IMG/VR virus record: IMGVR_UViG_3300030430_001440
Coordinates: 1 to 61,293 of that record
Length of the DNA stretch: 61,293 nucleotides
Strand: one strand, 5' to 3'
Source of the DNA: a virus
Below the pieces are notes generated by a model that was not told the origin of the DNA, made no database searches, and saw only the letters and a list, made by a program, of their open reading frames with translations. The position numbers and the translations under genes are program-made. Positions 9,257 through 45,059 of the stretch are shown here, piece by piece. The stretch's first letter is position 1, and the number at the start of each line of letters is the position of its first letter.

Positions 9257-9733
9257 ATGAAAAAATTACTAAATATAGTTGGAGCCGTCGCACCCACACT
9301 TGGTACGGCATTAGGCGGTCCACTTGGTGGTATGGCGTCAGGCGTTATATCTAAAGTTTTAGGTGTTGATAATAATCAACAAGCTATAGAACGTGCAATA
9401 CAATCCGCTACCCCCGAACAACTATTAGAAATCAAAAAAGCAGAAAAAGAGTTTGAAGTTAAAATGCAAGAACTTCAAGTAGACGTTTTTAAATTAGAAA
9501 CACAAGATAAACAAGATGCACGGTCCAAGTTTGGTAAAGATTGGACTGCACGTATTATAGGTATAGCTATGATAGGTGGCTTTCTTGGTTATATATTTTT
9601 AGTCACAATTCAACCACCAGAACAAAACAGTGAAGCACTAATTAATTTAGTGCTCGGTTATTTAGGAGGATTAGCTAGTGCAGTAATAAGTTTTTATTTC
9701 GGTGCGTCGCATAAGGATAAAGATAGCCAGTAG
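9257..9733 (+). CDS. Holin of the three-TM gene-transfer-agent type, 158 aa
   Basis: An N-terminal Gly/Ala-rich hydrophobic segment (about residues 5-33) is followed by a charged helix (PEQLLEIKKAEKEFEVKMQE) and two membrane segments near the C-terminus (about 100-118 and 130-150). The sequence pattern, including KDWTARIIG just before the membrane pair, fits the GTA_holin_3TM family. Holins of this type permit endolysin release through the inner membrane; the lysozyme is at 28803. AGGAG precedes the ATG. A second holin-like gene lies at 31720. Confidence 0.8.
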   Translation: MKKLLNIVGAVAPTLGTALGGPLGGMASGVISKVLGVDNNQQAIERAIQSATPEQLLEIKKAEKEFEVKMQELQVDVFKLETQDKQDARSKFGKDWTARIIGIAMIGGFLGYIFLVTIQPPEQNSEALINLVLGYLGGLASAVISFYFGASHKDKDSQ

Positions 9734-26611: not shown

Positions 26612-28480
26612 GTGCCTTTACAAAAATTTTTATTCAAACCAGGAATTAATAAAGAACTTACAGCATATTCTAACGAAGGTGGTTGGTTCGATAGTAATTT
26701 AATAAGATTTAGAAAAGGGCTCCCCGAAAAAATAGGTGGTTGGGCGAGAAGAAGCGATAATAATTTCATATCTCGTGGTAGAGCTTTACATGCATGGCAA
26801 TCACTCGCTGGCACACAGTTTATAGGAATAGGTGCCACACAAAAGTATTATATTGTAGAGGGTGTTAATTATTACGATATAACGCCTATAAGGAAAACAT
26901 CTACAAACAGTATTACCTTTTCTGCTACTAACGGAAGTGCTGATATAACTGCAACTGATAGTGGTCATGGTGCGGTTATAGGAGATTTTGTTACTATAAG
27001 TGGTGCTGTTAGTTTAGGCGGAAATATAACAGCAACTGTTTTAAACCAAGAGCACCAAATTACAGCTGTACCAAGTTCTAACACTTATACTTTTACTGCT
27101 TCAGCAACAGCTAATTCTAGCGATACAGGAAATGGTGGTTCAGGAGTTGATGGTGCATATCAACTAAATGTTGGATTGGATGTTTTCATAGCATCAACAG
27201 GCTGGAGTGCTGGTGCTTGGGGAGAAGGAACTTTCGGTTCAGTTTCTCCATTATCTTTTGCTACACAATTACGATTATGGTCGCACGATAACTTTGGTGA
27301 AGATTTAATTATAAATGCTAGAGGTGGTGGCGTTTTCTATTGGGATACAAGCACTGGAACATCTACTAGAGCAGTAGCATTACCAGATTTATCAGGAGCA
27401 AATTTAGCACCTACGGTAGCACTTCAAGTTTTGGTAAGTGATATTGATAGACACGTTATTTGTTTCGGAGCTGACCCTATAGAAGGTGGAGCAAGGTCAG
27501 GAACATCTGATCCATTACTTATAGCTTTTAGCGACCAAGAAGATGTAACACAATGGGAACCTTTACCGACTAATACTGCAGGTTCATTACGTTTATCTTC
27601 AGGTTCTCTAATTATAGGTGCAATTAGAGCAAGACAAGAAACATTAGTTTGGACAGATACTGCTCTTTATTCTTTAAGTTTTATAGGACAGCCTTTTACG
27701 TTCGGTGTTAATCTAATAAATGAAGGTATAAGTATGATAAGTCCAAACGCAGCTGTTAACACCACTAAAGGTATTTTTTGGATGGATAAAAAAGGGTTTT
27801 ACGTTTATACAGGTAGAGTTGCTACAGTTCCTTGTTCTGTTTTAGATTATGTTTTTAGTGATATGAACATATCGCAATCATTTCAAGTTTTTGGATTTTC
27901 TAATAAGGCTTTTGATGAAGTAGGGTGGTTTTATTGCTCATCAGGTGTAACTAATATAGATAGGTATGTTGTTTATAATTACGAAGAAAACGTTTGGTCA
28001 ATAGGACAACTATCTAGAAATGCATGGTTAGACGAAGGCACTTTAGACAACCCTATAGCGACACATGAAATATCAACTAATAGTAGTTGTGTTTTTAATC
28101 ACGAAGTAGGTCATGACGATAATGGTTCAGCTATGCAAAATGTTTTTATTGAATCTAGTGATTTTGATATAGGAGAGGGAGATTTTTTCCAATATGTTAA
28201 TAGAATTATTCCTGATATAAAATTTATAGGTAGTGGCTCCTTAGGTTCGTCAGGACAAAAAGTTGATTTTGTTTTGAAAAAAAGAAATTTTCCAGGAGAA
28301 GATTTAACGACAGTAACTACAGCCTCTTGTTTTTCTAACACTACAAAATTAGATACACGATTACGAGGTAGACAAGCAGTAATACGTGTGCAATCTAACG
28401 ACGATAACACAAACGATACTGGTATGAGTTTTAGATTAGGAGCTACTCGTTTAGATTTAAAACCTGACGGTCAAAGGTAA
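26612..28480 (+). CDS. Tail hub or stabilisation protein, P22 gp10-like, 622 aa
   Basis: The N-terminus FLFKPGINKELTAYSNEGGW, FDSNLIRFRKGLPEKIGGW is a hallmark of a large family in marine podoviruses, related by layout to P22 gp10-type stabilisation proteins of the tail hub. The rest is beta-rich with many Gly, Thr and Trp (propeller-like). The start is GTG with TAGGAG 6 bases upstream. It lies 3 kb after the other neck genes, separated by the fibre and small membrane genes. Confidence 0.75.
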   Translation: MPLQKFLFKPGINKELTAYSNEGGWFDSNLIRFRKGLPEKIGGWARRSDNNFISRGRALHAWQSLAGTQFIGIGATQKYYIVEGVNYYDITPIRKTSTNSITFSATNGSADITATDSGHGAVIGDFVTISGAVSLGGNITATVLNQEHQITAVPSSNTYTFTASATANSSDTGNGGSGVDGAYQLNVGLDVFIASTGWSAGAWGEGTFGSVSPLSFATQLRLWSHDNFGEDLIINARGGGVFYWDTSTGTSTRAVALPDLSGANLAPTVALQVLVSDIDRHVICFGADPIEGGARSGTSDPLLIAFSDQEDVTQWEPLPTNTAGSLRLSSGSLIIGAIRARQETLVWTDTALYSLSFIGQPFTFGVNLINEGISMISPNAAVNTTKGIFWMDKKGFYVYTGRVATVPCSVLDYVFSDMNISQSFQVFGFSNKAFDEVGWFYCSSGVTNIDRYVVYNYEENVWSIGQLSRNAWLDEGTLDNPIATHEISTNSSCVFNHEVGHDDNGSAMQNVFIESSDFDIGEGDFFQYVNRIIPDIKFIGSGSLGSSGQKVDFVLKKRNFPGEDLTTVTTASCFSNTTKLDTRLRGRQAVIRVQSNDDNTNDTGMSFRLGATRLDLKPDGQR

Positions 28481-28806
28481 TGTCTAAACTGTTAGAAACA
28501 AAATTACCTGTCGCAGTAGGACCTCTTGATCCTGCAATATTTAATAGATTAGTAAGAGTATTAGAATTATCTTTAGGTAGTAAAGATATAGACGCAACGC
28601 AAACTGTAAATGAAAACCAAAGAAATTTAAATTTGTTTAATAAAGGAGATATAATTTATAATTTAAGTACGGATCAATTACAACTATGGACTGGAACACA
28701 ATGGATAGATTTATACGTTGGGGAAGAAAAAGGAGTACAAGGCAATATGGCTTTGGGAAAAGTAAGCATAAAAACCAATGGAGCAACAACGGTGCCAATA
28801 TTATGA
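28480..28806 (+). CDS. Small virion-region protein, 108 aa
   Basis: The product (LPVAVGPLDPAIFNRLVRVL, then NLNLFNKGDIIYNLSTDQLQ LWTG) resembles short proteins after the gp10-like gene in related phages. Function unknown; possibly a tail component. Its ATG overlaps the previous stop, and its TGA overlaps the lysozyme ATG. Confidence 0.75.
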   Translation: MSKLLETKLPVAVGPLDPAIFNRLVRVLELSLGSKDIDATQTVNENQRNLNLFNKGDIIYNLSTDQLQLWTGTQWIDLYVGEEKGVQGNMALGKVSIKTNGATTVPIL

Positions 28807-29252
28807 ACATTGATAAATTAAGAGAAGAACTTACTTTTGATGAGGGGTGTATTGATAAAATATACTTAGATCATTTAGGCTATCCAACTTTTGGTATAGG
28901 TCATCTTATTCTAGAAACAGACCCAGAACACGGAAAAGAAGTGGGTACGCCTGTTTCTAACGAAAGAATTAAAGAATGTTTTGAAAACGATATCAATACA
29001 GTAACAAAAGAATTAGATAGAAATCTTTCATGGTGGATACATCTGCCAGAAGATATTAAAAGAGTTTTAGCAAACATGGGTTTTAATTTAGGTATAACTA
29101 GATTATTAAAATTCAAAAAGTTTTTAACTGCATTAGAAGAACATAATTGGGAAACTGCTGCGGTTGAGATGATGGATAGTCGTTGGGCTACACAAGTAGG
29201 ACCAAGAGCGACTAGACTTAGAGATAGGGTTCTCTTAGGAGGGCAAGGTTAA
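28803..29252 (+). CDS. Endolysin: T4-type lysozyme (GH24), 149 aa
   Basis: Glu14, Asp23 and Thr29 (FDEGCIDKIYLDHLGYPTFG) have exactly the spacing of the Glu11-Asp20-Thr26 triad of T4 lysozyme, and GIGHL follows. The C-terminal DSRWATQVGPRATRLRDRVL is the family's conserved end. It cleaves the glycan of peptidoglycan at lysis. I start at MNIDKLREEL (28803): the upstream part of the open frame is out-of-frame with the previous gene, and ATGA overlap couples the two. There is no signal peptide, so it needs a holin (9257 or 31720). Confidence 0.95.
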   Translation: MNIDKLREELTFDEGCIDKIYLDHLGYPTFGIGHLILETDPEHGKEVGTPVSNERIKECFENDINTVTKELDRNLSWWIHLPEDIKRVLANMGFNLGITRLLKFKKFLTALEEHNWETAAVEMMDSRWATQVGPRATRLRDRVLLGGQG

Positions 29253-29332
29253 ACAAAAATTATTAGCATGGATTGATAGACTTATAGAAAAGTCATGGCA
29301 AAACTACGCTAATAAATTACATAGGAAAAATA

Positions 29333-29440
29333 ATGAAAAAATCTAAATACATGAGAAGAGGCGGAGCTTTAAAGAGTTCTAAGTATAAGAAACGTGGTGG
29401 GGCTAAAAAGAAAGTAATGAGAAGAAAAAGAAGGAAGTAG
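29333..29440 (+). CDS. Tiny highly basic protein, 35 aa
   Basis: The short frame encodes MKKSKYMRRGGALKSSKYKK and ends KKKVMRRKRRK; over half of the residues are Lys or Arg. AGGAA lies 6-8 bases upstream. It is the first of a series of basic proteins (30117-31339). A DNA-binding or protamine-like virion role is inferred from composition only. The 80 bases before it hold a strong AGGAGGG but no usual start codon in frame. Confidence 0.65.
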   Translation: MKKSKYMRRGGALKSSKYKKRGGAKKKVMRRKRRK

Positions 29441-30114
29441 TGCCTCATCTCATAAGTAATATCCCGCACTTTAAATGTTGGGTGCGAAGGGAATTCACAG
29501 CTAATCACACAAGATATCACGGCGAGTTTTTACACGCAATAGCTTTCGCCGTTAACACAATACCAGATAGGTCTTTGAGTTTTCAGGTAGTTTTCACAGG
29601 TTGCGAAAACGAATACGATGACTGGGACGAGGGTAATATACATGGTGGTGCAATGTGGGCACGTATGCCTATACAGGGTCTTATAGCAGATATACCTGTA
29701 GAGGATTGGGCGGTGCCTATGGAAGACCATCTATGTCAGCCTTGGGATTGTGAATCAAGAGACCATTCGGTTATAGTTATGGATAGAGTAAGTTCTTCTC
29801 CATGGCTTTGCAAAATAGACGGAAAGTTTTATACTGGTAAGTATATGTTTACAGTAGATTATACAAATAACGCTATTGCCGATTGTCCTGCACAGCACAA
29901 ACAGTCGCACGTGCTTTATATAACAGAAGATTGTGAGTGGAAAGGAAACTTGGTTGCTTTACCTAATAATAGGGTTAGAGCCACAAGTCCTGCCTTATGG
30001 GTAACAGGTGAGGGTGCACCAGACTTTACACCATCACAACACTTACATTCTGCAGAGGGTCATGAAAGTTATCTTGACCCATCTATAACTTTTAATAATT
30101 TATACGAGGATTAA
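29440..30114 (+). CDS. Hypothetical protein, 224 aa
   Basis: The product (MPHLISNIPHFKCWVRREFT) contains FTGCENEYDDWDEGNIHGGA, then MWARMPIQGLIADIP and SRDHSVIVMDRVSS. Trp- and His-rich, and probably a globular virion or enzyme-like protein of marine cyanophage/pelagiphage type; I do not recognise the family. It starts as GTG-like (reads M) overlapping the previous stop by one base. Confidence 0.7.
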   Translation: MPHLISNIPHFKCWVRREFTANHTRYHGEFLHAIAFAVNTIPDRSLSFQVVFTGCENEYDDWDEGNIHGGAMWARMPIQGLIADIPVEDWAVPMEDHLCQPWDCESRDHSVIVMDRVSSSPWLCKIDGKFYTGKYMFTVDYTNNAIADCPAQHKQSHVLYITEDCEWKGNLVALPNNRVRATSPALWVTGEGAPDFTPSQHLHSAEGHESYLDPSITFNNLYED

Positions 30115-30116
30115 AT

Positions 30117-30314
30117 ATGCCTAGAAAACCTACTAAAGCAAAAAAGAAAACTACTAAGAAAAAGAAGAAGAAAAAAGGAGCAACACCTACAAACCCTAGT
30201 TTATACGCTAGAGTGAAGGCTGAGGCTAAACGTAAATTTAAAGTGTATCCAAGTGCTTATGCGAATGGGTGGTTGGTACGTGAATATAAAAAACGTGGTG
30301 GAGGGTATAGATAA
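30117..30314 (+). CDS. Lys-rich basic protein, 65 aa
   Basis: The N-terminus is almost a poly-Lys tract (AKKKTTKKKKKKKGATPTNP). The C-terminal part SLYARVKAEAKRKFKVYPSA, YANGWLVREYKKRG is a conserved segment seen in many marine phage proteins of this sort. It is likely a virion or DNA-binding protein. The stop overlaps the next ATG (TAATG). Confidence 0.8.
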   Translation: MPRKPTKAKKKTTKKKKKKKGATPTNPSLYARVKAEAKRKFKVYPSAYANGWLVREYKKRGGGYR

Positions 30315-30472
30315 TGGCAAGAAAAGGTTTATGGGCTAATATACACGCTAAACGTAAAAGAATAAAAGCAGGCTCTGGTGAGCGTATGCGTAAAAAAGGT
30401 GCAAAAGGTGCACCTACAGCAGCACAGATGAGACGTGCTAGAAAAGGAACTAAAAAACGTGGCAAAAAGTAG
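30314..30472 (+). CDS. Basic protein, 52 aa
   Basis: The short frame encodes MARKGLWANIHAKRKRIKAG then PTAAQMRRARKGTKKRGKK. The 'GLWANIHAKRxRIkaGSGErMRkkG' segment is recurrent in marine phage genomes with unknown function. It overlaps both neighbours by a few bases. Confidence 0.8.
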   Translation: MARKGLWANIHAKRKRIKAGSGERMRKKGAKGAPTAAQMRRARKGTKKRGKK

Positions 30473-30761
30473 ACGTAAAAAAGACCCTAAAAAGGGAACT
30501 GGTAAAAAACCTAAAGGTAGTGGAAGAAGATTATACACAGATGAAAATCCGAAAGACACAGTACGTATTAAATTCGCTACTCCTGCAGACGCAAGGGCAA
30601 CAGTTGCAAAAGTTAAAAAAGTTAACAAACCTTTTGCAAGAAAAATACAAATTCTTACTGTCGGTGAACAGAGAGCGAAAGTGATGGGTAAAACGCAAGT
30701 AGTAAGTATATTTAAAAAGGGTAAAGAAGCTATAAGAAAAGCGAGGAAAAAACGTGGCTAA
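30459..30761 (+). CDS. Basic protein, 100 aa
   Basis: I choose the GTG at 30459 (reads MAKSRRKKDPKKG), because AAAAGGAA lies upstream and the next gene uses the same GTG-GC start style. A poly-basic N-terminus is followed by a compact alpha/beta part (TVRIKFATPADARATVAKVK) and a basic tail. The gene overlaps both neighbours. Confidence 0.75.
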   Translation: MAKSRRKKDPKKGTGKKPKGSGRRLYTDENPKDTVRIKFATPADARATVAKVKKVNKPFARKIQILTVGEQRAKVMGKTQVVSIFKKGKEAIRKARKKRG

Positions 30762-31062
30762 ACCAAAAGGAGGTCTTACTGCATGGTTTGGTAAAGGCAA
30801 AAAAGGAGACTGGGTAGATATAGGTGCTCCTAAGAAAAAAGGCAAGTTCCAAAAATGCGGTAGAAAGTCTGCTAAAGGTAAAAGCAAACGTAAATACCCT
30901 AAATGTGTTCCACGCAGTAAAGCTAGAAGTATGACGGCGGCACAACGTAGAAGTGCTGTAAGAAGAAAAAGAGCTGCTGGTAATCCTGGAGGTAAACCAA
31001 GAAACGTAAGAACATTCGTTAGGAAGAAAAGGAGAGCAAATGGCAAAAAGAAAAAAAGCTAA
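30754..31062 (+). CDS. Basic protein, DUF5872-like, 102 aa
   Basis: The sequence GGLTAWFGKGKKGDWVDIGA, PKKKGKFQKCGRKSAKG, then YPKCVPRSKA and RSAVRRKRAAGNPGGKPRNV is a conserved phage family that I recall as DUF5872. Two Cys may bind zinc. GAGGAAA precedes a GTG start. Function unknown; abundance of Lys/Arg and Gly suggests nucleic acid or virion association. Confidence 0.85.
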   Translation: MAKPKGGLTAWFGKGKKGDWVDIGAPKKKGKFQKCGRKSAKGKSKRKYPKCVPRSKARSMTAAQRRSAVRRKRAAGNPGGKPRNVRTFVRKKRRANGKKKKS

Positions 31063-31339
31063 AGCCATAAGAAGAACAACAGGTAAGGGAGGTAATTATC
31101 GACCCACTAAAAAAGGGGCGGGAATGACCAAGAAGGGAATTAGGGCTTACAGAAAAGCTAATCCTGGAAGTAAACTAAAAGGAGCTGTTACAGGTAAAGT
31201 AAAGAAAGGTAGTAAAGCAGCCAAAAGACGTAAGTCATATTGTGCTAGGTCTTTAGGACAATTAAAAAGAAGCTCTGCTAAAACTAGAAATGATCCTAAT
31301 TCAAGAATACGTCAAGCAAGACGAAGGTGGAAATGTTAA
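31040..31339 (+). CDS. Basic protein, DUF6321-like, 99 aa
   Basis: The segment AGMTKKGIRAYRKANPGSKL, KGAVTGKVKKGSKAAKRRKS, YCARSLGQLKRSSAKTRNDP and the terminal RQARRRWKC match a family widespread in phages, recalled as DUF6321. Function is unknown. AGGAGAG precedes the ATG. It is the last of the tandem basic genes. Confidence 0.85.
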   Translation: MAKRKKAKAIRRTTGKGGNYRPTKKGAGMTKKGIRAYRKANPGSKLKGAVTGKVKKGSKAAKRRKSYCARSLGQLKRSSAKTRNDPNSRIRQARRRWKC

Positions 31340-31720
31340 ATGGCTAAAGCACCAGAATCATTTGTATATAATGCTACTTTAGATAGAGTAATAGATGGAG
31401 ACACATTTGATTGTGTTTTAGATTTAGGTTTTGATGTAAAACTTCATAAACAACGTGTAAGACTTGCAGGTATTGATACGCCAGAATCTAGAACACGAGA
31501 TAAAGCTGAAAAAGTTTTAGGCTTGGCTGCTAAAGAAAGACTTAAAGAACTATGTGTAGGAACTTTTCAGGTTAAATCTCTAGGCAAAGGTAAGTATGGT
31601 AGAATACTAGGAATACCTTATACAGAAGATGGTAAAGATATTTGTCAAATACTTATTAAAGAAGGTCATGCGGTTGAATATGACGGCGGTAAGAAAACTA
31701 AAGTTTGGGGCGATTATTAG
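31340..31720 (+). CDS. nuc: Thermonuclease-like (SNase) nuclease, 126 aa
   Basis: The staphylococcal-nuclease OB-fold motifs are complete: RVIDGDTFDCVLDLGF, VRLAGIDTPESRT with the catalytic Arg and metal Asp, then GKYGRILG and a C-terminal ICQILIKEGHAVEY. The family cuts DNA and RNA with calcium. No signal peptide is present, so it would act in the host cytoplasm, probably degrading host nucleic acid or processing phage DNA. It starts directly after the previous stop. Confidence 0.93.
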   Translation: MAKAPESFVYNATLDRVIDGDTFDCVLDLGFDVKLHKQRVRLAGIDTPESRTRDKAEKVLGLAAKERLKELCVGTFQVKSLGKGKYGRILGIPYTEDGKDICQILIKEGHAVEYDGGKKTKVWGDY

Positions 31721-32070
31721 TGGAAAGTGCTGTAACTCTTATTCAGGAAGTTGGTTTTCCAATAGCTGCTGCTATAGGTTTAGGTTGGTTTATTTATAAA
31801 CTTGTAATTCGTATAGTAGATGGTATGGAAACAAAATTAGATATCGTAGATGAAAAAGTAGCACAACAAATTAGTGCGATAGAAGAAAGGTTAGGAACTA
31901 AATTAGATTCACAACATGGTATTTTAGTAGCTCTTATAGATAGAGTGCGTAGTTTAGATAATGAAATTATTAGACAAGATACTTTAATTAAAACAATATT
32001 AGGTGTACCAAACTTAATAGATAGTAATAAAATTGCAAAGGCGGATAGAGATGATCAAAGAAAAGATTAA
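31720..32070 (+). CDS. Holin-like membrane protein, 116 aa
   Basis: I start at GTG 31720 (reads MESAVTLIQEVGFPIAAAIG), which overlaps the nuclease stop by one base. One strong N-terminal membrane segment (about 10-28) is followed by a long coiled coil. The N-terminal pattern 'TLIQEVGFPIAAAIGLGxFIYK' is common in phages and often labelled holin-like. It could alternatively serve the adjacent curli-like secretion cassette. Confidence 0.75.
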   Translation: MESAVTLIQEVGFPIAAAIGLGWFIYKLVIRIVDGMETKLDIVDEKVAQQISAIEERLGTKLDSQHGILVALIDRVRSLDNEIIRQDTLIKTILGVPNLIDSNKIAKADRDDQRKD

Positions 32071-32548
32071 AGAAGAAGCAGAAAAACAGTTCTTATTAAG
32101 AATAATAGCGTTATTAGGTGTGATCCTGTTTTTAGGTATTTTTATAACTAATGTAAAAGCAGATACTATAACTTTTAAATTTAAAAATCCTAGTTTCAGT
32201 GGTGTTAATACGTCATCACATTATTTAACAATTGAAAACCAAGAGTTTAATAGAAAAATGACTATTAAAGCAGAGATTAAAGCTTTACAAGATGAAATAG
32301 AAAGAGATAAAGAAAATACAACACTTGCTAGATTTATTAGGAATCTAGAGAGCCGTATCTATGCACAGTTATCTAGACAACTTGTAGAAAATTTATTCGG
32401 TGAAACTCCAAGTGATAGTGGTACATTAGAATTAGAAGGTAATACTATTGAATACAGTATAGTAGATGGAATTATAACGTTAACAATAACAGACCCAGAT
32501 GGAAATATTACAACGATACAGTTGCCTGTTGGTGATTTTTCTTTCTAG
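32051..32548 (+). CDS. csgF: CsgF-like curli secretion accessory protein, 165 aa
   Basis: A long positively charged N-terminus and hydrophobic segment end in a signal peptidase site (NVKA|D, cut after Ala37). The mature N-terminus DTITFKFKNPSFSGVN matches the conserved start of CsgF (in E. coli TMTFQFRNPNFGG), the part that inserts into the CsgG channel. The C-terminal strands (IEYSIVDGIITLTITDPDG) also fit. The ATG at 32051 is preferred to a TTG at 32033 because AGGCGG lies upstream. CsgF in E. coli sits at the cell surface and links secretion to fibre nucleation. The 3' end overlaps csgG out of frame by 50 bases. Confidence 0.87.
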   Translation: MIKEKIKEEAEKQFLLRIIALLGVILFLGIFITNVKADTITFKFKNPSFSGVNTSSHYLTIENQEFNRKMTIKAEIKALQDEIERDKENTTLARFIRNLESRIYAQLSRQLVENLFGETPSDSGTLELEGNTIEYSIVDGIITLTITDPDGNITTIQLPVGDFSF

Positions 32549-33371
32549 CTGTAGCGTAGCTCCCGTACTACAACAGTTTGAACAAAAAGGCGAATGTATA
32601 AAATATAAAGTTAGTTTAGAAGGCACCGTTGTTAGAAGGTGCGTAGAAAGGGAACCCTATGTAGAAAACTTACCTAAAGTTTTAGAAATACAATCGCAAG
32701 AATTATTAGAAGTAGAGGTTCCTAAAATCCCCATAGTTGTTGCTGTTTACCCAACAGCATTTACTGATCAAACAGGTCAACGTAAAAGTAATAGTGAGTT
32801 TGCTTTATTTAGTAGTGCTATAACGCAAGCACCAAGTCATCTTCTTATTCGTGCATTAAAACATACAGCGAATGGAAACTTTTTTAGAGTAGCGGAAAGA
32901 GTTGGTTTAGATAACCTAACTAAAGAAAGACAATTAATACGTTCTGCTAGACAAGATGAAGATGATGCAAAACCTTTAATGCCTTTATTATTCGCAGGAG
33001 TTCTTATGGAAGGAGCCGTAGTTGGTTATGATACTAATATTAAAAGCGGTGGTGTTGGAGCTAGATATCTAGGTTTAGGAGCAAGTAAACAATACAGGAT
33101 AGATAGCGTAACTTTATCTTTGCGTATGGTTAGCGTGGCTACAGGAGAAGTATTAATAGATGTTTTAGTTAGTAAACAAATATACAGCTACGGAAAATCA
33201 CAAGACGTTTTTAAATTTATAGAAGCAGGAACAGAATTAGTAGAATTAGAGGGCGGTGATGTAGAAAATGATTCAGTAACAATAGCTTTACAAAGAGCGA
33301 TTGAAGATGCTGTTTTGCAAATAATAAAAATAGGGTATGATAGAAAATATTGGGAGAAAAAATATGAATAG
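32499..33371 (+). CDS. csgG: CsgG-like outer-membrane curli secretion pore, 290 aa
   Basis: A type II signal peptide ends in the lipobox IFLSSC (Cys18). The mature sequence follows E. coli CsgG closely: KIPIVVAVYPTAFTDQTGQR, NLTKERQLIRSARQ, ILMEGAVVGYDTNIKSGGVG-type segment (about 168-190), ARYLGLGASKQYRIDSVTLS and LRMVSVATGEVL. The length is near that of E. coli CsgG (277). CsgG forms a nonameric lipoprotein channel in the outer membrane that exports curlin subunits. The signal peptide is encoded within the end of csgF, so the overlap is unavoidable and suggests coupled synthesis. Confidence 0.95.
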   Translation: MEILQRYSCLLVIFLSSCSVAPVLQQFEQKGECIKYKVSLEGTVVRRCVEREPYVENLPKVLEIQSQELLEVEVPKIPIVVAVYPTAFTDQTGQRKSNSEFALFSSAITQAPSHLLIRALKHTANGNFFRVAERVGLDNLTKERQLIRSARQDEDDAKPLMPLLFAGVLMEGAVVGYDTNIKSGGVGARYLGLGASKQYRIDSVTLSLRMVSVATGEVLIDVLVSKQIYSYGKSQDVFKFIEAGTELVELEGGDVENDSVTIALQRAIEDAVLQIIKIGYDRKYWEKKYE

Positions 33372-34068
33372 ATTAATTAGTTTTATTTTAGTATTACCTT
33401 TTCTGATTACAGCAGACAATGAAATATATGTTGATCAATCAGGAGCAACTGCTAACATAGATTTAGAACAACTTGGTTCATCTAATATCATTGGTGGTCT
33501 AAATTCTGTAGCTGGAACTTTAACAGCTTTAGATTTAGATGGCGATTCTTTAACTTTAGATATTAACCAAATAGGTGATAGCAACAAATTTCTAGGTGAT
33601 ATTTTAGCAGGTAGTTTAACAGGCTTTTTTGAGTTTGATGGTGATAGCAATACTTTTACTATACAAGTTGATCCTACGAATACCTACGGTGCAGATAATT
33701 CTGATCTAAACGTAGATGTAACAGGTAGTTCTAATACATTTACTTTAGATTTAGCTACTACAGCGTTAGCAAGTACTACAGACCTAGATTGGATTATTCA
33801 AGGCGATAGTAACGTTTTTGATTTTGATATTAATTACGATACAGGTACAAGTTATGTTGACGTAGATGGAGATAGCAACACAGTAAATTTTGAAGGAAGT
33901 GGTTATGCGGGAGGTTATTTCTATCTTGACCAAACAGGTAATAGTAGAACATTCGATATTACGCAATCTTCAACTTTGGCACTTGATTGGCTTAAAATCA
34001 CATCTACTGGTTCTAATGGTACTGTCTGCGTGGTTCAAGACGACAGCGGTACAAGCGTCAGTTGTTGA
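33364..34068 (+). CDS. Secreted curlin-repeat (CsgA/CsgB-like) protein, 234 aa
   Basis: The signal peptide (MNRLISFILVLPFLITA, cut after residue 17) is followed by about eight repeats with the core Q/D-x-x-G-D/S-S-N-x-F/I, such as LEQLGSSNIIG, INQIGDSNKF, FDGDSNTF, VTGSSNTF, IQGDSNVF and VDGDSNTV. Some keep the curlin spacing Gln-x4-Asn. It ends in a short region with two Cys (CVVQDDSGTSVSC). Curlin repeats fold as stacked beta hairpins that polymerise into amyloid. I start at 33364 because GGGAGAAAAA lies upstream. Its 3' 164 bases overlap the FecR-domain gene in another frame. Confidence 0.82.
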   Translation: MNRLISFILVLPFLITADNEIYVDQSGATANIDLEQLGSSNIIGGLNSVAGTLTALDLDGDSLTLDINQIGDSNKFLGDILAGSLTGFFEFDGDSNTFTIQVDPTNTYGADNSDLNVDVTGSSNTFTLDLATTALASTTDLDWIIQGDSNVFDFDINYDTGTSYVDVDGDSNTVNFEGSGYAGGYFYLDQTGNSRTFDITQSSTLALDWLKITSTGSNGTVCVVQDDSGTSVSC

Positions 34069-35098
34069 TATAGGCGATATTGCTGAATTATCGGGTAACG
34101 CTCAAATAGTTCGTGATCAGCCGTATACTGCAGAGTTAGATTTTGCAATACAAAGTAATGATCAAGCCATAACGAATAATGGTCGTTTAGGTATAAAATT
34201 CCTTGATGACTCTGTTGTAAGGCTTACAGAACATTCACAACTTGTAATAGACGAATATATATACGACCCTGATCCTAGTAAATCTAAAATGTCCCTTAAT
34301 TTTGCTTTAGGTACAGCTAGATTTATAACGGGTAATTTAAGCCGCATAGATAAACAAAACATAAAACTTAGTACTCCTACTGCAAACATTGCGATTCGTG
34401 GTACTGATTTTACTGCGACAGTAGACGAACTAGGTCGTTCTTTAATAATCTTGTTACCTGATGCATTTGGTCTTTCTAGTGGTGAAATAGAAGTAGTAAC
34501 GGCTATGGGCTCTGTTTTACTTAATAGACCTTATCAAGCTACAACAGTGAGTGTTTTTGAAGCAGCACCAACAAAACCAGTAATTTTAGATTTATCTTTA
34601 GATATTATAGATAATATGTTAATAGTTACACCGCCTAAAGAAGAAACTTTACAAGAAGAACAAACAAGTACAACACAAAACGATAGTGTTTTAGATTTTA
34701 ATGATTTAGATATTGATTATTTAGCTGAAGATTTTCTAGAAGAAAGTAATTTAGAATTTACAGAACTAGATATCAACTATCTAGATGTAAATTTTCTAGA
34801 AGATTTACTTGATGTTATAGACGCTTTAGAAGTAGAGGAAGAAGAAGAACAGCTAGGTTTAGCAACTAGTGTAAATCTTACAGGCACTAATTTTGGACAA
34901 GATACTCAAACACAAATAACAACAATAATCGCAGGTCAAGTAATTAGTTTACAAAGAAAAGTAAACCAAAATTTACAACTTGATTTAAATTCTGGTAATG
35001 CTTATACGCTTATTTTAATACAAGACGGAGTATCTAATATAATTAAAATAAACGGCGGTAGCGACTCTGTTATCACTATTACACAAGGTAGTGGATGA
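33905..35098 (+). CDS. Secreted FecR-domain protein with C-terminal curlin-like repeat, 397 aa
   Basis: A Sec-type hydrophobic segment (LKSHLLVLMVLSAW) ends near VQAS. It is followed by a FecR domain: ELSGNAQIVRD, GRLGIKFLDDSVVRLTEHSQ, FALGTARFITG, TPTANIAIRGTDFTATVDE and GEIEVVTAMGSVLL. The middle has acidic repeats (LDIDYLAEDFLEE, LDINYLDVNFLED). The C-terminus has LIQDGVSNIIKINGGSDS then ITITQGSG, which match the curlin core of the neighbour (Gln-x4-Asn). The start is uncertain: ATG 33905 has AAGGAAG upstream; TTG 33983 or ATG 34016 would shorten the N-terminus. The stop overlaps the cyclase ATG. Confidence 0.87.
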   Translation: MREVISILTKQVIVEHSILRNLQLWHLIGLKSHLLVLMVLSAWFKTTAVQASVVDIGDIAELSGNAQIVRDQPYTAELDFAIQSNDQAITNNGRLGIKFLDDSVVRLTEHSQLVIDEYIYDPDPSKSKMSLNFALGTARFITGNLSRIDKQNIKLSTPTANIAIRGTDFTATVDELGRSLIILLPDAFGLSSGEIEVVTAMGSVLLNRPYQATTVSVFEAAPTKPVILDLSLDIIDNMLIVTPPKEETLQEEQTSTTQNDSVLDFNDLDIDYLAEDFLEESNLEFTELDINYLDVNFLEDLLDVIDALEVEEEEEQLGLATSVNLTGTNFGQDTQTQITTIIAGQVISLQRKVNQNLQLDLNSGNAYTLILIQDGVSNIIKINGGSDSVITITQGSG

Positions 35099-36831
35099 AA
35101 AAAATATATTTAATACTTACTGTTTTATTAACACTACCTCTAATATTCCAAACCACACCGCTTGAAATACTTAAATTAAAAACCTATGATGCGTTTATAC
35201 AAACACCAGAACCCAGTGGTAATTTTGTAATCCTAAATATTACCGAAGAAGATGTAGAGCGTGAAGGTGGTTATCCTTTTCCTCGTAAACGTTTAGCTGA
35301 TATAAACATAGAGCTTCTAAGTAAAGGTGCAATAGGCGTAGGTTGGGCTATATCTTTTCCACAAGCCGATAGGTTTGGCGGTGATAATGATCTAGCTAGG
35401 TCGTTAGGTTATGCCCCTTCTGTTATTGCGATGTTCGAAGATGGAAAAGGTCTTTATCCTGCCTCTCCTGGAACAGTTGTTATAGGCAACAGTGTAGGCG
35501 GTATTAGTAGTTCAGGAGTTAAGGCTAACCATTCATCTTACGACGAAGTTCTGCAGGGTTTAGCCATAGCTCCTACTGATGTTGATCAGCTAGTAAGAAG
35601 AATGCCTTTATTAGTTAAAACACCTAATAACGAATGGATACCTAGTTTTGGTACACAAATATATAAATCATTGTTTGGTATAAAAACTTATATTATAAAA
35701 ACTAATGAAAACGGTATACAAGAAATATCAATACAAGGTATACCACCGATTAAAACAGATAGTTTTGGTCGTAAATGGATTAGTTGGGTAGATACACCAC
35801 AAACAGATTTACAAGAAATGGATGTTAACGGTAAATTCGTTATTGTTGGTGTTACAGCTAATGGTGTAATGCCACAAATCGCTACGCCTGTTGGACTTGT
35901 TGAGCCACATAAGATACAAGCAGCACTTGCAGAAAGTATTTTAATACAAGATAGCCCTTATATACCTGATTACGCTTTAATTGTAGAGCTTAGTATAGTT
36001 TTAGTTTTAATAAGCCTTATATGGGTCGCTATAGTGCGTTTAGGTATTTATTTAGGGTTAGGTATTACTTTAGTTTTACTAACGGCTACGGGTGTTTACG
36101 GCGTTTATACGATAGGTCAAGGTTTTTTAATAGACGTTACATGGGCTTTAGTAAGTGGTTTTATAACTGCAAGTGTAGCGTTTTATTTAAGATTTAGAGA
36201 ACAATATAAATTACGGTTACAAATTAAAAAACAATTCGAACATTACTTAGACCCAAGACAAGTAAAACAATTACAAAATAATCCTGATTTATTAAAACTA
36301 GGCGGTGAAAAAAGAGAGTGTACTTTTTTATTTACCGATGTCAGAGGTTTTACTGCACTATCAGAAACATTAGAGCCAGAGGAAGTAACACATATAATGA
36401 ATAGAGCTTTAACTATACAGTCTGATGCAGTGAAAGAATACGGTGGAATGGTAGATAAGTATATAGGTGATGCAATGATGGCTATATACAACGCTCCTAT
36501 TGATCTAGTAGATCACGCAGATAGAGCTATAAAAACAGCTGTAAAGATAATGCAAGATATGGAAAAAGCTAATATAGGTGTAACAATAGGTATCGGTATT
36601 AATACAGGGGAAGCTGTAGTAGGTAATATGGGAAGCGAAACAAGGTTCGATTATAGTGCTATTGGAGACGCTGTAAATACTGCTGCTAGACTAGAATCAG
36701 CTACAAAAGAAGTAGGCGTAGATGTAATAATAGGGCACAACAGTAAAAAACAAACTAGTTTTAAACTCAAATTGTTAAAACCAATCAAAGTAAAAGGTAA
36801 AGAAAAAAGTTTAACAATATATACACTTTGA
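35095..36831 (+). CDS. CHASE2-sensor class III adenylate cyclase, 578 aa
   Basis: One N-terminal membrane segment (1-20), an extracytoplasmic CHASE2 domain (about 25-285; DAFIQTPEPSGNFVILNITE, RKRLADINIELLSKGA), three membrane helices (about 293-368) and a C-terminal class III cyclase. Metal-binding Asp415 (FTDVRGFT) and Asp459 (DKYIGDAMMA), adenine-selecting Lys455 and Asp525 (AIGDAVN), and Asn528 and Arg532 (NTAARLE) are present, so it should make cyclic AMP. CHASE2-cyclases beside FecR-domain genes are a bacterial theme. The ATG overlaps the FecR stop, placing it in the curli-like operon. Such a gene is unexpected in a phage. Confidence 0.95.
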   Translation: MKKIYLILTVLLTLPLIFQTTPLEILKLKTYDAFIQTPEPSGNFVILNITEEDVEREGGYPFPRKRLADINIELLSKGAIGVGWAISFPQADRFGGDNDLARSLGYAPSVIAMFEDGKGLYPASPGTVVIGNSVGGISSSGVKANHSSYDEVLQGLAIAPTDVDQLVRRMPLLVKTPNNEWIPSFGTQIYKSLFGIKTYIIKTNENGIQEISIQGIPPIKTDSFGRKWISWVDTPQTDLQEMDVNGKFVIVGVTANGVMPQIATPVGLVEPHKIQAALAESILIQDSPYIPDYALIVELSIVLVLISLIWVAIVRLGIYLGLGITLVLLTATGVYGVYTIGQGFLIDVTWALVSGFITASVAFYLRFREQYKLRLQIKKQFEHYLDPRQVKQLQNNPDLLKLGGEKRECTFLFTDVRGFTALSETLEPEEVTHIMNRALTIQSDAVKEYGGMVDKYIGDAMMAIYNAPIDLVDHADRAIKTAVKIMQDMEKANIGVTIGIGINTGEAVVGNMGSETRFDYSAIGDAVNTAARLESATKEVGVDVIIGHNSKKQTSFKLKLLKPIKVKGKEKSLTIYTL

Positions 36832-36839
36832 TATATAAT
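36810..36839 (+). promoter_or_regulatory. Promoter for the ejection-protein genes
   Basis: TTTAAC at 36810-36815 and a perfect TATAAT at 36834-36839 with an 18-base spacer, overlapping the cyclase stop. CGGAG follows before the ATG at 36860. It would separate the cassette from the structural genes downstream. Confidence 0.5.
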
Positions 36840-36859
36840 CAAACAAACGGAGAAATTCA

Positions 36860-37630
36860 ATGCTGGGGACATTACTAGCTACAATACTTGGTGGAGCAAT
36901 AGTCGGAGAAATTAACCGACGTAGAGCACCTGAACCTAAAGGAGTTATTGGCTCTGGTACTGCACCTTCATTAGACTCAGGTATACCATTAGAATTAACA
37001 GATATAGCGGGTAGTGTAGTTACTGATCCCGAAGATAATGTGTCAGATGAATCAGGCAAAACTATATCAGATTTAGATGAAGAAAAACTACTAGAGCTTC
37101 TTAAAAATAATCCTGATGGTATTATGGGATTATATCATGGGGGAAAAATACCAAATTACGCCGATGGCGGAGGTATTTTAGGGTTAGGTCTTTTTGATAA
37201 TTTAGATACGGTAGTAGATTTAGAAAATTTTTATAATTCACAATCAGAAGAAGTTCAAGATATAATAGATAGTAGTCTTGCAGAAGGTATTCTTGCAATG
37301 ATTAAACAATATGATGAACCACAAGGTAGTTTAGTATCTACACGAACGCTACCTGTAGCAGGTAATGCAAATAGAAGAAGATTACAATTTAAACCTATAG
37401 GGATGGATGATGGTGGTGTTTTAGATAGAAAAATGTTCAAACCTATGTTAAGCGGTGGTGAGCTTGACGGTCCAGGAGGACCTAAAGATGATTTAATTCC
37501 TGTAATGGCTAGCGATGGTGAGTTTATGTTATCTAAAGCTACGGTAGATTTAGTAGGTGGTGGTAATCATAATAAAGGTATAGCTGCACTAGAAAAGTTA
37601 AATAATAGAGGCAACAGAGTATATGGCTAG
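36860..37630 (+). CDS. Gly-rich virion protein, 256 aa
   Basis: A hydrophobic N-terminus (MLGTLLATILGGAIVGEI) is followed by low-complexity acidic sequence. Then come YHGGKIPNYADGGGILGLG and a C-terminal MLSGGELDGPGGPKDDLIPV, MASDGEFMLSKATVDLVGGG. This last motif is typical of internal virion proteins in marine podoviruses. It overlaps the next gene by 8 bases. Likely an ejected or internal protein. Confidence 0.75.
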   Translation: MLGTLLATILGGAIVGEINRRRAPEPKGVIGSGTAPSLDSGIPLELTDIAGSVVTDPEDNVSDESGKTISDLDEEKLLELLKNNPDGIMGLYHGGKIPNYADGGGILGLGLFDNLDTVVDLENFYNSQSEEVQDIIDSSLAEGILAMIKQYDEPQGSLVSTRTLPVAGNANRRRLQFKPIGMDDGGVLDRKMFKPMLSGGELDGPGGPKDDLIPVMASDGEFMLSKATVDLVGGGNHNKGIAALEKLNNRGNRVYG

Positions 37631-38714
37631 TAGAGAAGAACAAGAATATTCCAGTCAAGCCCCCGCAGGGTATATAGGAAGTTTATTATCGGGAACAATA
37701 TTCCCTTACGCACAATCTTATTTTAAAGACCAGTTTGCTAATTTAGGTAGAGAAGATTCTAGTCCGTTTACCTATACAGGACAAAGGGTAGCTGATTTTG
37801 ACCCTAGAGAATTAGCTGCTATGCAAATGTCTGATGCTGCTATCGGTAGTTATAGACCTTATTTAGATAGATCAGCTCAACTTTTTGATAGAGCTGATTT
37901 ACAAACACGTGCAAGCACACGTGAGTTCGACCCTAGTAGAATCGATAGGTTTTATAATCCATTTGAAGAAGACGTTGTTCAACAAACATTAGCAGATATA
38001 GATAGAAACTATGCTACACAAGATAAAAGTTTACGTGATAGAGCTGTAAGTCAAGGAGCTTTTGGTGGTTCTAGAGGTAGAATCGCACAAGAAGAACTAG
38101 CTAGACAAACAGGTAGAGGTGCAGCAGAAGCCGTTGGTAAAATTAGAAGTGGTGGTTTCGGTCAAGCTTCGCAACTTGCATCGAATGCTTTTGAACAAGC
38201 ACAGCGTAGAGGATTACAAGGTGCGGGACAAATAGCAGGTATAGGGTCTAATTTTCAAGGGTTAGGTCAACTATTCCCACAACTACAATCACAAGATATA
38301 CAAAGAACTATGGGTTTTGGTGGGTTAGGTAGAGGTCGACAACAATCTCTAATGGATTTAGCGTATCAAAACTTTACAGGTCAATACAACTTACCTATGC
38401 AATTAATACAAAACTTAGGTTCACTTACCGCTTCGCTTGGTCCTTTAGCAGGTGGTTTCGGTTATGCTGGTGCTGAGCCTGCAACACAGTCAAGTTACCT
38501 TCCAAGAACTACTATGGGTATGCTTCCGAATCAAAACTTTTTACCATTCCAACAAGGAACTAACACACAAACAGCAGGTATGCAGGGCGGTGGATTACCA
38601 AGTATAGGTGGTGGTATGATGTTTGCAGGTGGTAGTCCTGGATTTAATTTTAGAGGACCATCGTTTGGAGCAGGTATTACAGGTGGAATGATGCCTTACG
38701 GACCAGTTTATTAA
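37623..38714 (+). CDS. Internal virion or DNA transfer protein, 363 aa
   Basis: Gln-, Gly- and Arg-rich with helical repeats such as LRDRAVSQGAFGGSRGRIAQ. The end is Gly/Met-rich (GGGLPSIGGGMMFAGGSPGF). This type lies beside large ejection proteins of marine podoviruses. It is probably delivered with the DNA; function unproved. Confidence 0.75.
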   Translation: MASREEQEYSSQAPAGYIGSLLSGTIFPYAQSYFKDQFANLGREDSSPFTYTGQRVADFDPRELAAMQMSDAAIGSYRPYLDRSAQLFDRADLQTRASTREFDPSRIDRFYNPFEEDVVQQTLADIDRNYATQDKSLRDRAVSQGAFGGSRGRIAQEELARQTGRGAAEAVGKIRSGGFGQASQLASNAFEQAQRRGLQGAGQIAGIGSNFQGLGQLFPQLQSQDIQRTMGFGGLGRGRQQSLMDLAYQNFTGQYNLPMQLIQNLGSLTASLGPLAGGFGYAGAEPATQSSYLPRTTMGMLPNQNFLPFQQGTNTQTAGMQGGGLPSIGGGMMFAGGSPGFNFRGPSFGAGITGGMMPYGPVY

Positions 38715-43300: not shown

Positions 43301-43743
43301 AAGGGTTAAGTTTAGCAATGATGAATGTAGATCAAACCTCAGCAGTGCCTGGATTTAAATTATTACAAAGAATGTTAATACCACCGCTTACGCAAACAGG
43401 TAGAAGGGTTACTGCCATTGATTTACTTATGAACACTCGTTCTGAAAATTTTATTAGACAAATGATAGCTGACCCAAAACTTGCTAGACAAGTAGTTAGA
43501 GCAGCAGAAGGCAGGATGTCAATACAACAATTAGCTAATTTCCTAGCTGCTTATAATATTACAGCAGGTAATGTAAAGATTGATAAATTTAATTTTCATA
43601 TCGAAGATATGGCAGATGAGTTACAGTATTATGATACAAAACTAAAAGAACTAAAAATAAATCAAAAAGAAGAACTTACATTAGAAGATGAACAAGCGAT
43701 ACTCGATGTAGTTACAGAGTATATGAACAATAGAAGAAAATGA
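40372..43743 (+). CDS. Large internal virion protein, 1123 aa
   Basis: The largest protein of the phage: a helical, charged polypeptide with a Gly/Ala-rich hydrophobic stretch near 245-295 (AAAFTRGPVGSANIPNAFKN, GSTAGAVGGDVARLV) that might insert in a membrane during ejection. No transglycosylase motif is evident. By size and position it is the main DNA ejection protein. Both ends overlap neighbours by 4 bases. Confidence 0.8.
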   Translation: MSQQATQQVIDAVYSSPLNNNPNLTYGSVLSPMEVKILAIARDENTRNREIQAGNLDTETYNRILQAVPVIEEKLKVYNIAPISYTLEEREPETFAAMQRDQEASQQRRIMAGVRGNYPQGYTPFEIKPPIGFEKRQRIASYGIDPDNPYEFEDRTKEKAFYNALAFGPRRLSKENVQYVLDKSDIKGDLLYVDPTKPNLGFRFKPEGSDQYQILRNPRLTRDDIRKFVLQESPAIVGDILGIATAAAFTRGPVGSANIPNAFKNILKTTAGSTAGAVGGDVARLVYGQQQGYNDLTPEEIVDEAQLMGLYAGLGTGAVNIAMKVVPAFYRALSGELIPADVLAKIQGVIDRQGAILQRKGTEQTIYGVDVATVDEINDQIRYFVKKAGEEYKGYNPSLAGANPLDQDAADLEFIWLKLAKDPNLTNLYGEMKSRNQSVINLLMRELGQEFEGKALKDIPVGTDVDEAVRASAQEQIDRYVTEGSAAINRILKEADESIPTSNTTLFDKTVKGDADILPKTTSNLAAVRDFYLKDYQDNFNKILNDPRYAEFSTGAGFTKNIAKEFKLLRDNTTRQFKRPEAVKEIEQTLGLGNKEKTLLYRLAGQSPDGSAVFKSPDFTLRELFELQIVLNELRVNSKIQKSRAFARTAIEDINKQIDKSFNDEVAKRLGITVRTNYGKKDLDKIQEYRRENNFGNDLTLAYREMDQAYTDVNNQVLKQLIANERPEELIPALLNSNVPNARINTPVTNFIKVLESGGNDGVFYVQKQMFDYIQNTVIKPDNTPLQNNKAVKDFINKNKGTLDAIFKDDFGTVINKNQLDKVGRKIAEQDRQINVLRNTFGVDADSVNPVYDIVNNIIRAGSDVRSSGQLQNDIDFLMTTIGDNPILEEQVAALTRNILLRDFLGLRKGAGGQFEINPQALNSILNEGFGPDELAGRLTFEESFGKLLGKDSADNIKAFKLLNDLVQREVGLDPSEGLSLAMMNVDQTSAVPGFKLLQRMLIPPLTQTGRRVTAIDLLMNTRSENFIRQMIADPKLARQVVRAAEGRMSIQQLANFLAAYNITAGNVKIDKFNFHIEDMADELQYYDTKLKELKINQKEELTLEDEQAILDVVTEYMNNRRK

Positions 43744-45059
43744 TATTATTAAATAATAGAAACGGCATTATTTCGTTAGCCAACGCTAGGCGAGACGCTA
43801 ATATATCTAGGAATAGAGCAAGAGATCAGTACGAATCAGACGTAGCTGATTTTAAAGATGCCCGTGTTAGAGAAATAGAAAACGATTTTATGTCTACTGG
43901 GGGTTTTTCTGATAACCCTGTATTTATGCAATCCCCTTTAGTTGAAGAACTCCCAAGCGACATGATAGTACCTCCTATGCCTGATGAATTTAGTATACCT
44001 TTTAATCCGATAGATGATCTAGGACCTATAGAAAACCCATATGTCCCTATTTTTGAACAACCTGTATCAGGTAAACCCGAGCCACCACCTTCTATTGGTG
44101 GTCCAGGTCCAGGTCCAGGAGACCCATTTGATCCAATAAATCAACCACCTATAAAACCACCTGTTGAACCTTCTCCAATACGACCTCCAGATGATCCACC
44201 TTTTTACGGAGGACCTGTGCCACCACCTCCAGGAGTTGAGCCACCAGTTTTTATACCACCTGATCTAACACCACCTCCAGAAGGCTTTCCTATCATAGTC
44301 AGAGATAAAAGACCTTTTTACGAGCCACCAACATCTTTTGAAAGTGGTGTGCCTGCATTTAAACTTCCGTCAGGACTTTCTATCGACAGGTTTGGAAGAG
44401 CTCCAGGAGACTATGGAAGACCAGAGCCAACTCCTTTGCCTCCGAAACCAATAAAACCAATACCAAAACCAGAGCCACCGATTTTTTGTTTTGTAAGAGG
44501 AACAAAAGTTGATATGGCTAATGGTACGCAAAAACCTATTGAAAATATAAAAGTTGGTGATATAGTTTTAGCACAAGATAATGCTTCTGATGTAGTTTCT
44601 TACGTACATGATATACCAAAAGATAATAGAAACTTATGGACTATAAATGATAGAATAACAGCTACAGATGCACATGCATTTTTAACAGAAGACGGTTGGA
44701 AATCTAATAATTCTAAATTATCAAATACCGTGTACAATGCTTATGGGATTGAAGTAAAAGATTTACAAGTAGGGGATAAATTAATTACTAAAGAAGGTGT
44801 AGAAGAAGTAACTAAATTAGAAAATTCAGAAGCTTTTGTAAAAGTATATAACTTTACTACCTCATCAACACATACGTATTTGGTTGATGGTGTTGTATCA
44901 CATAATAAACAACCACCAATTATACCTCGTCCTCTTGAGCCTGTAGAGAAAAAATTCGGTGGGCGTTTAAATAAAGGGATTATGCGGTTGCCGCAAAGTC
45001 AACAAGGGGATATAATGACAACAAGAATATTCCAAAATGCATTTAAGCCAAGGAGATAA
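43740..45059 (+). CDS. Virion-region protein with intein-like Hint domain, 439 aa
   Basis: Residues 1-249 include a long Pro-rich region (PPPGVEPPVFIPPDLTPPPE). At Cys250 a Hint domain begins: CFVRGTKVDMANG, KPIENIKVGDIVLAQD, then TDAHAFLTEDGW (block B-like His) and VYNFTTSSTHTYLVDGVVSHN, which ends at His388-Asn389. Residue 390 is Lys, not the Cys, Ser or Thr needed for splicing. The order fits bacterial intein-like (BIL) domains, which can cleave or cross-link proteins. The 50 residues after it resume Pro-rich sequence. Its gene ends the ejection-protein run before 45063. Confidence 0.82.
   Translation: MILLNNRNGIISLANARRDANISRNRARDQYESDVADFKDARVREIENDFMSTGGFSDNPVFMQSPLVEELPSDMIVPPMPDEFSIPFNPIDDLGPIENPYVPIFEQPVSGKPEPPPSIGGPGPGPGDPFDPINQPPIKPPVEPSPIRPPDDPPFYGGPVPPPPGVEPPVFIPPDLTPPPEGFPIIVRDKRPFYEPPTSFESGVPAFKLPSGLSIDRFGRAPGDYGRPEPTPLPPKPIKPIPKPEPPIFCFVRGTKVDMANGTQKPIENIKVGDIVLAQDNASDVVSYVHDIPKDNRNLWTINDRITATDAHAFLTEDGWKSNNSKLSNTVYNAYGIEVKDLQVGDKLITKEGVEEVTKLENSEAFVKVYNFTTSSTHTYLVDGVVSHNKQPPIIPRPLEPVEKKFGGRLNKGIMRLPQSQQGDIMTTRIFQNAFKPRR

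Follow-up and report, generated by a model that had tools for sequence, protein, structure and literature searches.

The window analysed here, 61,293 bases of the IMG/VR virus record IMGVR_UViG_3300030430_001440, carries at positions 32051-36831 a cassette of overlapping plus-strand genes that encode, in order, homologues of CsgF and CsgG, a curlin-like protein, a FecR-domain protein and a CHASE2 sensor with a class III nucleotide cyclase domain. On balance, we favour the interpretation that the cassette is a phage module, of probable late expression, for assembling a type VIII (curli-type) export apparatus and a curlin-like surface fibre, and that it includes an envelope-sensing FecR/CHASE2 pair. 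The cassette is widespread and under selection, but it is already published and is not new. A sequence-only reading of this DNA had listed the five genes in their order, which the open reading frames (ORFs) confirm, and had known of no description of such a unit; the latter impression was mistaken, as the unit is described in PMC9599517 (Wittmers 2022) and is carried by the isolates HTVC008M and Melnitz. Added here are a sixth gene, selection on the fibre gene, and a cyclase with no evident receiver.

Pfam profile searches bore out the family calls made earlier for CsgF, CsgG, FecR, CHASE2 and the cyclase, all of which exceed the curated cut-offs, whereas the curlin protein falls below its own. 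The CsgF homologue (32051..32548, +; 5.3e-20) has a hydrophobic N-terminal segment at residues 10-40, and the CsgG homologue, a predicted outer-membrane pore subunit (32499..33371, +; 3.2e-48), begins with a lipoprotein-type N-terminus (LSSC, by eye). They are followed by the curlin-like protein (33364..34068, +), modelled as a β-solenoid of strand-turn-strand units, and by the FecR-domain protein (about 33983..35098, +; 7.8e-10), whose TTG start aligns with the ATG start of its counterpart in locus L016. The last gene (35095..36831, +) combines CHASE2 (3.1e-26) with Guanylate_cyc (3.8e-21). Ahead of csgF lies a gene for a 116-aa protein with a GTG start, which we refer to by the working name YGFP (31720..32070, +); it has a membrane segment near the N-terminus and a charged C-terminal part. 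Successive genes overlap by 20 nt (YGFP/csgF), 50 nt (CsgF/CsgG), 8 nt (CsgG/curlin), 86 nt (curlin/FecR, counted from the TTG codon at 33983) and 4 nt (FecR/cyclase). The earlier remark that no internal promoter is obvious agrees with the count of promoter-like sites, which are not in excess (29 in 28400-38700 vs a mean of 36.6 in shuffled sequences).

Over 77% of its length, the portal-type protein of the window shares 51-54% identity with those of HTVC023P, HTVC027P and 023Pt_psg01, and by this kinship the window classifies as an HTVC023P-type phage record, in line with the phage context first proposed. The accession of 023Pt_psg01 is named as its own by the HTVC023P-type study (PMC9599517). 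From the same kinship we infer a SAR11 host. Three separate IMG/VR contigs (L004, L005 and L007) carry the same cassette, with lysozyme, K-rich and nuclease genes upstream as in the window and the genes at 36860 and 37623 downstream, where the stretch that follows the cyclase is longer by about 0.6 kb. A chimeric join to bacterial DNA, a risk raised by the sequence-only reading, is therefore unlikely. More generally, nothing was found in favour of an assembly artefact or bacterial contamination, and since further IMG/VR contigs show the same genes and flanks and cultured phages carry the cassette too, its probability is negligible.

Conservation was assessed in a locus set consisting of the window, the two isolates, scan loci and five genome-bin contigs; it includes the seeds of the hidden Markov models and many near-identical loci. 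The CsgG-alignment viral scan supplied the best 80 of at least 583 confirmed stretches, to which 20 from a first scan were added. Using profiles built here, we found the curlin, FecR and cyclase genes all present in 72 of 73 loci with downstream room (the exception being L104). Merging near-identical loci of both viral scans, several of which lie on the same contigs, reduced 179 loci to 121 clusters, and the three downstream genes were kept in 87 of the 88 clusters with room. The genome-bin contigs that carry cassette genes (L104-L107 and L143, from bins titled Maricaulis, Flavobacteriaceae, Rhodobacteraceae and Pelagibacter) are probably phage contigs.

All six genes are under purifying selection. 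The ratio of nonsynonymous to synonymous substitution rates (dN/dS) between the window and nine relatives was 0.05-0.26 across the six genes, save two YGFP values of 0.36 and 0.56 obtained against the two-copy loci L008 and L066; these estimates used stop-to-stop frames including overlapping gene ends, with several dS values near saturation and without a control gene. The curlin gene, at 0.07-0.21, is thus being maintained and is not decaying, which favours fibre export over a bare pore, and any pore-only idea must account for curlin. One such idea, advanced in PMC7029224 and PMC9599517, is that an ungated CsgG channel admits cofactors or nutrients. It accords with the failure to find the CsgE gate in any of 24 virus records, but leaves csgF, the curlin gene(s) and the PA14-curlin fusion described below unexplained, and we assign it little probability.

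The CsgG homologue matches solved CsgG over residues 67-287 (phmmer, 8.9e-42), while a phmmer search with the CsgF homologue returned nothing among PDB sequences at E ≤ 0.1. For the curlin-like protein, the assignment draws on sub-threshold repeats and on an AlphaFold2 model of a β-solenoid (mean predicted local distance difference test score, pLDDT, 89.7) in which we counted eight strand-turn-strand units by eye. VIA-align superposed this model on the CsgA fibril 8enq with Z 11.3 (110 of 111 residues aligned; root-mean-square deviation 8.9), and other solenoids scored higher, up to Z 17.3. The best Foldseek match was tapirin (E 0.022), with the CsgA fibril at rank 19 (E 1.9), and a profile search of the PDB gave a single match, an antibody chain at E 0.32. 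The protein is thus predicted to be a solenoid whose likeness to CsgA is not singled out by structure comparison. Among 50 relatives, 17 matched Curlin_rpt at E ≤ 0.1 (best 3.3e-5). A pair of cysteines near the C-terminus (C206 and C218 in the numbering of the mature protein) is nearly invariant (at least 90%).

Second curlin genes occur in both isolates. That of HTVC008M (L002:10501-11826) encodes PA14 (2.7e-6) fused with curlin repeats (5.2e-8), both above cut-off, an adhesin-like make-up as judged from its domains. The second curlin gene of Melnitz likewise exceeds the Curlin_rpt cut-off, and two curlin-repeat proteins are annotated in the phage's record; the authors of PMC9004378 (Buchholz 2022) state that the phage is without csgA and csgB.

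YGFP belongs to the cassette, so the earlier list was one gene short. Together with CsgF it was present in all 76 CsgG-seeded loci with upstream room, in one or two copies at this place (two in 23/76). A viral scan seeded with YGFP yielded 71 new loci, sharing 11 clusters with the CsgG scans, and CsgF was the next gene in 67/67 of those with room, or in 49/49 clusters once near-identical loci were merged. The merged figure of 90/90 for the upstream genes is partly circular, as it includes YGFP-seeded loci, and 76/76 is preferred. Among 50,697 phage records YGFP matched only six, all of them HTVC008M/Melnitz cassette records, and neither there nor in the YGFP-seeded loci was it seen without the cassette where room sufficed. 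It corresponds to phrog_18771, a PHROG without assigned function. In PMC9599517 the gene upstream of csgF is labelled 'histidine kinase', which we equate with YGFP by position and copy number. Pfam gave no kinase family up to E 5 for six YGFP members, and no histidine is invariant across 188 ORFs (best column 68%), 168 of which have a single predicted membrane segment. For YGFP the published label is probably wrong; its sequence marks it as a component of the cassette that lacks the features of a kinase.

The same gene bears on the proposal that the cassette times lysis or opens the envelope, with CsgG and CsgF opening the outer membrane late and YGFP acting in a holin-like manner. Such a role has been proposed for Melnitz CsgGF (PMC9004378), and relatives of YGFP weakly match the holin PHROG phrog_4898 (best E 1.1e-4; 3/6 members). 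The cassette is preceded by a lysozyme-TM3 gene pair in nine loci (L012, L014, L016-L021 and L023), and lysozyme or TM3 lies near it in 31/39 loci that extend far enough in both directions, before merging. This count, however, includes near-identical loci and leans on TM3, a membrane protein of phrog_1544 (no assigned function) that has no holin match in Pfam and is not shown to be lytic; lysozyme alone was found within 5 kb upstream in 16/67 loci (10/49 clusters). The identification of YGFP as a holin was dropped as the main reading because the gene is tied to the cassette and was not seen apart from it where room sufficed. Moreover, lysis would make the curlin and FecR genes superfluous, yet they are conserved and selected. 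With lysozyme near the cassette in part of the loci, a lysis role may nonetheless apply, and we rate it as unlikely. As for the phrog_1544 gene itself, it lies at 9257-9733 in the window, far from the cassette, and at 6613-7086 in L016; it follows the cyclase within 800 bases in 39/82 loci (30/62 clusters) and precedes the cassette in others.

The FecR-domain protein comprises a signal-peptide-like start (by eye), the FecR domain, an acidic linker and a C-terminal β domain. Its AlphaFold2 model has a mean pLDDT of 64.9, with the linker poorly modelled. The FecR domain resembles structures of FecR-family anti-sigma proteins (6ovk, Z 12.0, and 4m0n, Z 11.1, by VIA; 4m0h was also matched by Foldseek/VIA). 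A match of its first part to the 'cell surface anchoring domain' 5ix9 (72 of 76 residues; Foldseek E 7.2e-3) was not used, with Z 7.3 being below 8. Classic FecR anti-sigma regulators combine a periplasmic FecR domain with an N-terminal cytoplasmic anti-sigma part that works with a partner sigma factor. No anti-sigma part was found in the phage protein: in its frame of 402 aa, Pfam recognises no domain other than FecR, and the protein opens with a short hydrophobic stretch. Structure searches singled out nothing for the C-terminal β domain. All 72 distinct complete tails (from 98 ORFs, 93 of them complete) finish in a motif like YTVILIQDGVSNxxKINGGxDSxITITQ, which is looser in L002, L003, L105 and L106, and all 72 fit a loose terminal pattern. 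The tail was also considered as a curlin repeat and rejected, with a probability of 7% against the curlin family profile and no Curlin_rpt match by Pfam in 18 tails; its likeness to a curlin hairpin is a by-eye resemblance only.

The earlier statement that FecR and CHASE2 genes are neighbours in bacteria was sustained. In a sample of the class of G001, 34 of 150 FecR matches, distributed over 32 of 64 genomes, had a CHASE2 match within 6 kb, among the matches listed and given without a chance level; of these pairs, again among the matches listed, 11 ran FecR to CHASE2 on the same strand, 7 had the reversed order and 16 lay on opposite strands. Genes for a FecR protein and for a CHASE2 kinase also sit together in a biofilm-linked operon of Burkholderia (PMC5192318). 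By analogy, the phage FecR and CHASE2 genes look like a bacterial pair that has been joined to curli genes. Their frames lie within about 200 bases of each other in 122 of 144 loci with both, before merging. Large ORFs resembling cytosine DNA methyltransferases by eye intervene in L081, L283 and L233.

Class III cyclases use two metal-binding Asp residues, a substrate Lys and Asp, an Asn and an Arg. The window cyclase carries all six, and across 82 sequences the first metal Asp, the Lys and the second metal Asp are invariant (82 each), with Arg in 81, Asn in 79 and the substrate Asp in 74; the cyclases of Melnitz and L106 have Ser in place of both the conserved Asn and the substrate Asp. Hydrophobic segments of the window protein span residues 4-23, 288-332 and 344-363. 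In L076, L090 and L105 the cyclase is split into two ORFs, by sequencing error or decay.

A receiver for the cyclase product was sought in virus records and in the Pelagibacter family, by which we mean the family of the genome behind L107, so named from the title of that contig. Domains that bind cyclic nucleotide monophosphates (cNMPs) were found in 0/24 cassette-bearing virus records, some perhaps fragments; in a search of 25 records, the single match was the bacterial bin G297. Among 147 Pelagibacter-family genomes, nine contain a cNMP-binding domain, none a class I cyclase, and three a class III cyclase, two of these sharing a contig with CsgG and the third being a weak match below cut-off. 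CsgG occurs in three of the 147, including both with the cyclase on the CsgG contig (in G342, for example, CsgG and a class III cyclase share one contig), and we read these CsgG-bearing contigs as phage contigs. The scarcity of cNMP-binding domains makes usual cyclic AMP (cAMP) signalling hard to place, provided that the host is SAR11, as inferred above. These results bear directly on the regulatory scheme stated in PMC9599517, in which FecR is an iron-dependent regulator and controls the type VIII secretion system (T8SS) together with a histidine kinase and cAMP. An upstream protein without kinase domain or invariant histidine, a FecR domain that stands alone in its frame and the rarity of cNMP-binding domains (9/147 presumed-host-family genomes, 0/24 virus records) all speak against that scheme, which we consider very improbable. 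A different use of the cyclase, distinctly unlikely in our estimation, would be a phage-specific type VIII secretion with obligatory YGFP in which the CHASE2-cyclase, in hosts nearly devoid of their own cyclases and cNMP receptors, senses fibre assembly through FecR and intervenes directly, either depleting ATP or signalling to an unrecognised receiver, so as to time the end of infection and not as a gene regulator.

In the export-and-fibre interpretation that we favour, CsgG would form the outer-membrane pore and CsgF its outer cap, while the curlin gene product would be exported as a fibre subunit onto the surface of the infected cell. YGFP would be a cassette-specific part of the inner membrane. 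The FecR protein would be periplasmic or surface-located, and CHASE2 may read it while the cyclase makes a cyclic nucleotide inside, an arrangement modelled on the presumed partnership of bacterial FecR and CHASE2 proteins. The fibre would most likely alter the infected-cell surface, either retaining sibling cells nearby or fending off other phages. Observed here are the genes, the constancy of their order, the selection on them and the cyclase residues; late expression, export, the fibre, sensing and any benefit to the phage are what these observations suggest.

Several points weigh against this interpretation. The curlin protein of the window scores 17.5 bits against Curlin_rpt (18.8 for the mature part) vs a cut-off of 20.7, and DUF3060 is matched by more of its relatives than Curlin_rpt is (24/50; best 2.1e-4), a result that slightly tempers our confidence. 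Foldseek gives no PDB match to its model at E ≤ 0.001. CsgE was found in 0/24 virus records including the window (the control search was positive in E. coli only, of 14). The description of the cassette as a complete module is accordingly right only in part, with CsgE missing and a curlin identity that draws on repeats below cut-off together with the solenoid model. Alphaproteobacterial curli modules also lack CsgE, and its absence in phages is likewise stated in PMC9599517; the gate is accessory to type VIII secretion, not defining. The sensing role of FecR is drawn by analogy, and judging from domain searches the cyclase output has no evident receiver in the phage records checked or in most Pelagibacter-family genomes. 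Cultures infected with Melnitz showed no clumping (PMC9004378), and our literature search found no experiment demonstrating export or a fibre.

Some further features of the window were recorded. Neither a tRNA nor an Rfam match was found in it. A run of four short ORFs rich in lysine/arginine (65, 108, 102 and 99 aa; 30117-31339) precedes the nuclease gene; they match only PHROGs without assigned function, the 108-aa ORF matching none. The protein encoded at 29440-30114 matches phrog_3704 ('ferredoxin', 2.6e-26), and Pfam gives nothing for it at E ≤ 1. A 439-aa protein (43740-45059) contains a Hint-type domain in residues 250-387 (Hom_end_hint 1.6e-10, PT-HINT 2.4e-9). Outside the window, OR851715.1, a record of 1,499 bases named Salmonella phage S.Kent 1-2-1, has a CsgG match at 38% identity and is perhaps bacterial DNA.

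Phages of very abundant ocean bacteria appear to supply a secretion system that their hosts lack. The closest known system is the pelagiphage T8SS module of PMC9599517, reported there in nine HTVC023P-type genomes as CsgF-CsgG-CsgA/B-FecR-(CsgA/B)-AC, with the same genes in pelagimyophages, transfer between podophage and myophage families, expression in metatranscriptomes, and proposed roles in aggregation and superinfection defence. It shares phage group, genes and order with the window; its 'HK' position corresponds here to a small protein without kinase features, and the window has one curlin gene. The cassette is also described in PMC7029224 (Zaragoza-Solas 2020), and beyond these two papers and PMC9004378 our literature search turned up no work that extends them. 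HTVC008M and Melnitz have csgF, csgG, curlin, FecR and cyclase genes in the order of the window, with csgF and csgG annotated, but are large Kyanoviridae (141-147 kb) with two YGFP copies and an additional curlin gene that separates FecR from the cyclase.

Bacterial curli operons have CsgF, CsgG and a curlin-type substrate in common with the cassette. They differ from it in that the phages checked are without CsgE, and in the rarity of the remaining genes: a genome scan gave 40 bacterial csgG loci, of which a single one had FecR or CHASE2 (L148, with csgG about 7 kb away) and none had YGFP (flanks of up to 10 kb, some contigs short). The Burkholderia BiofilmReg system (PMC5192318) likewise places an extracytoplasmic FecR-domain protein beside a CHASE2 sensor. 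There, however, the FecR protein is of LysM-FecR type and the sensor is a CHASE2 histidine kinase, with no csg genes named in the available part of that paper, whereas the predicted output in the phages is a cyclase.

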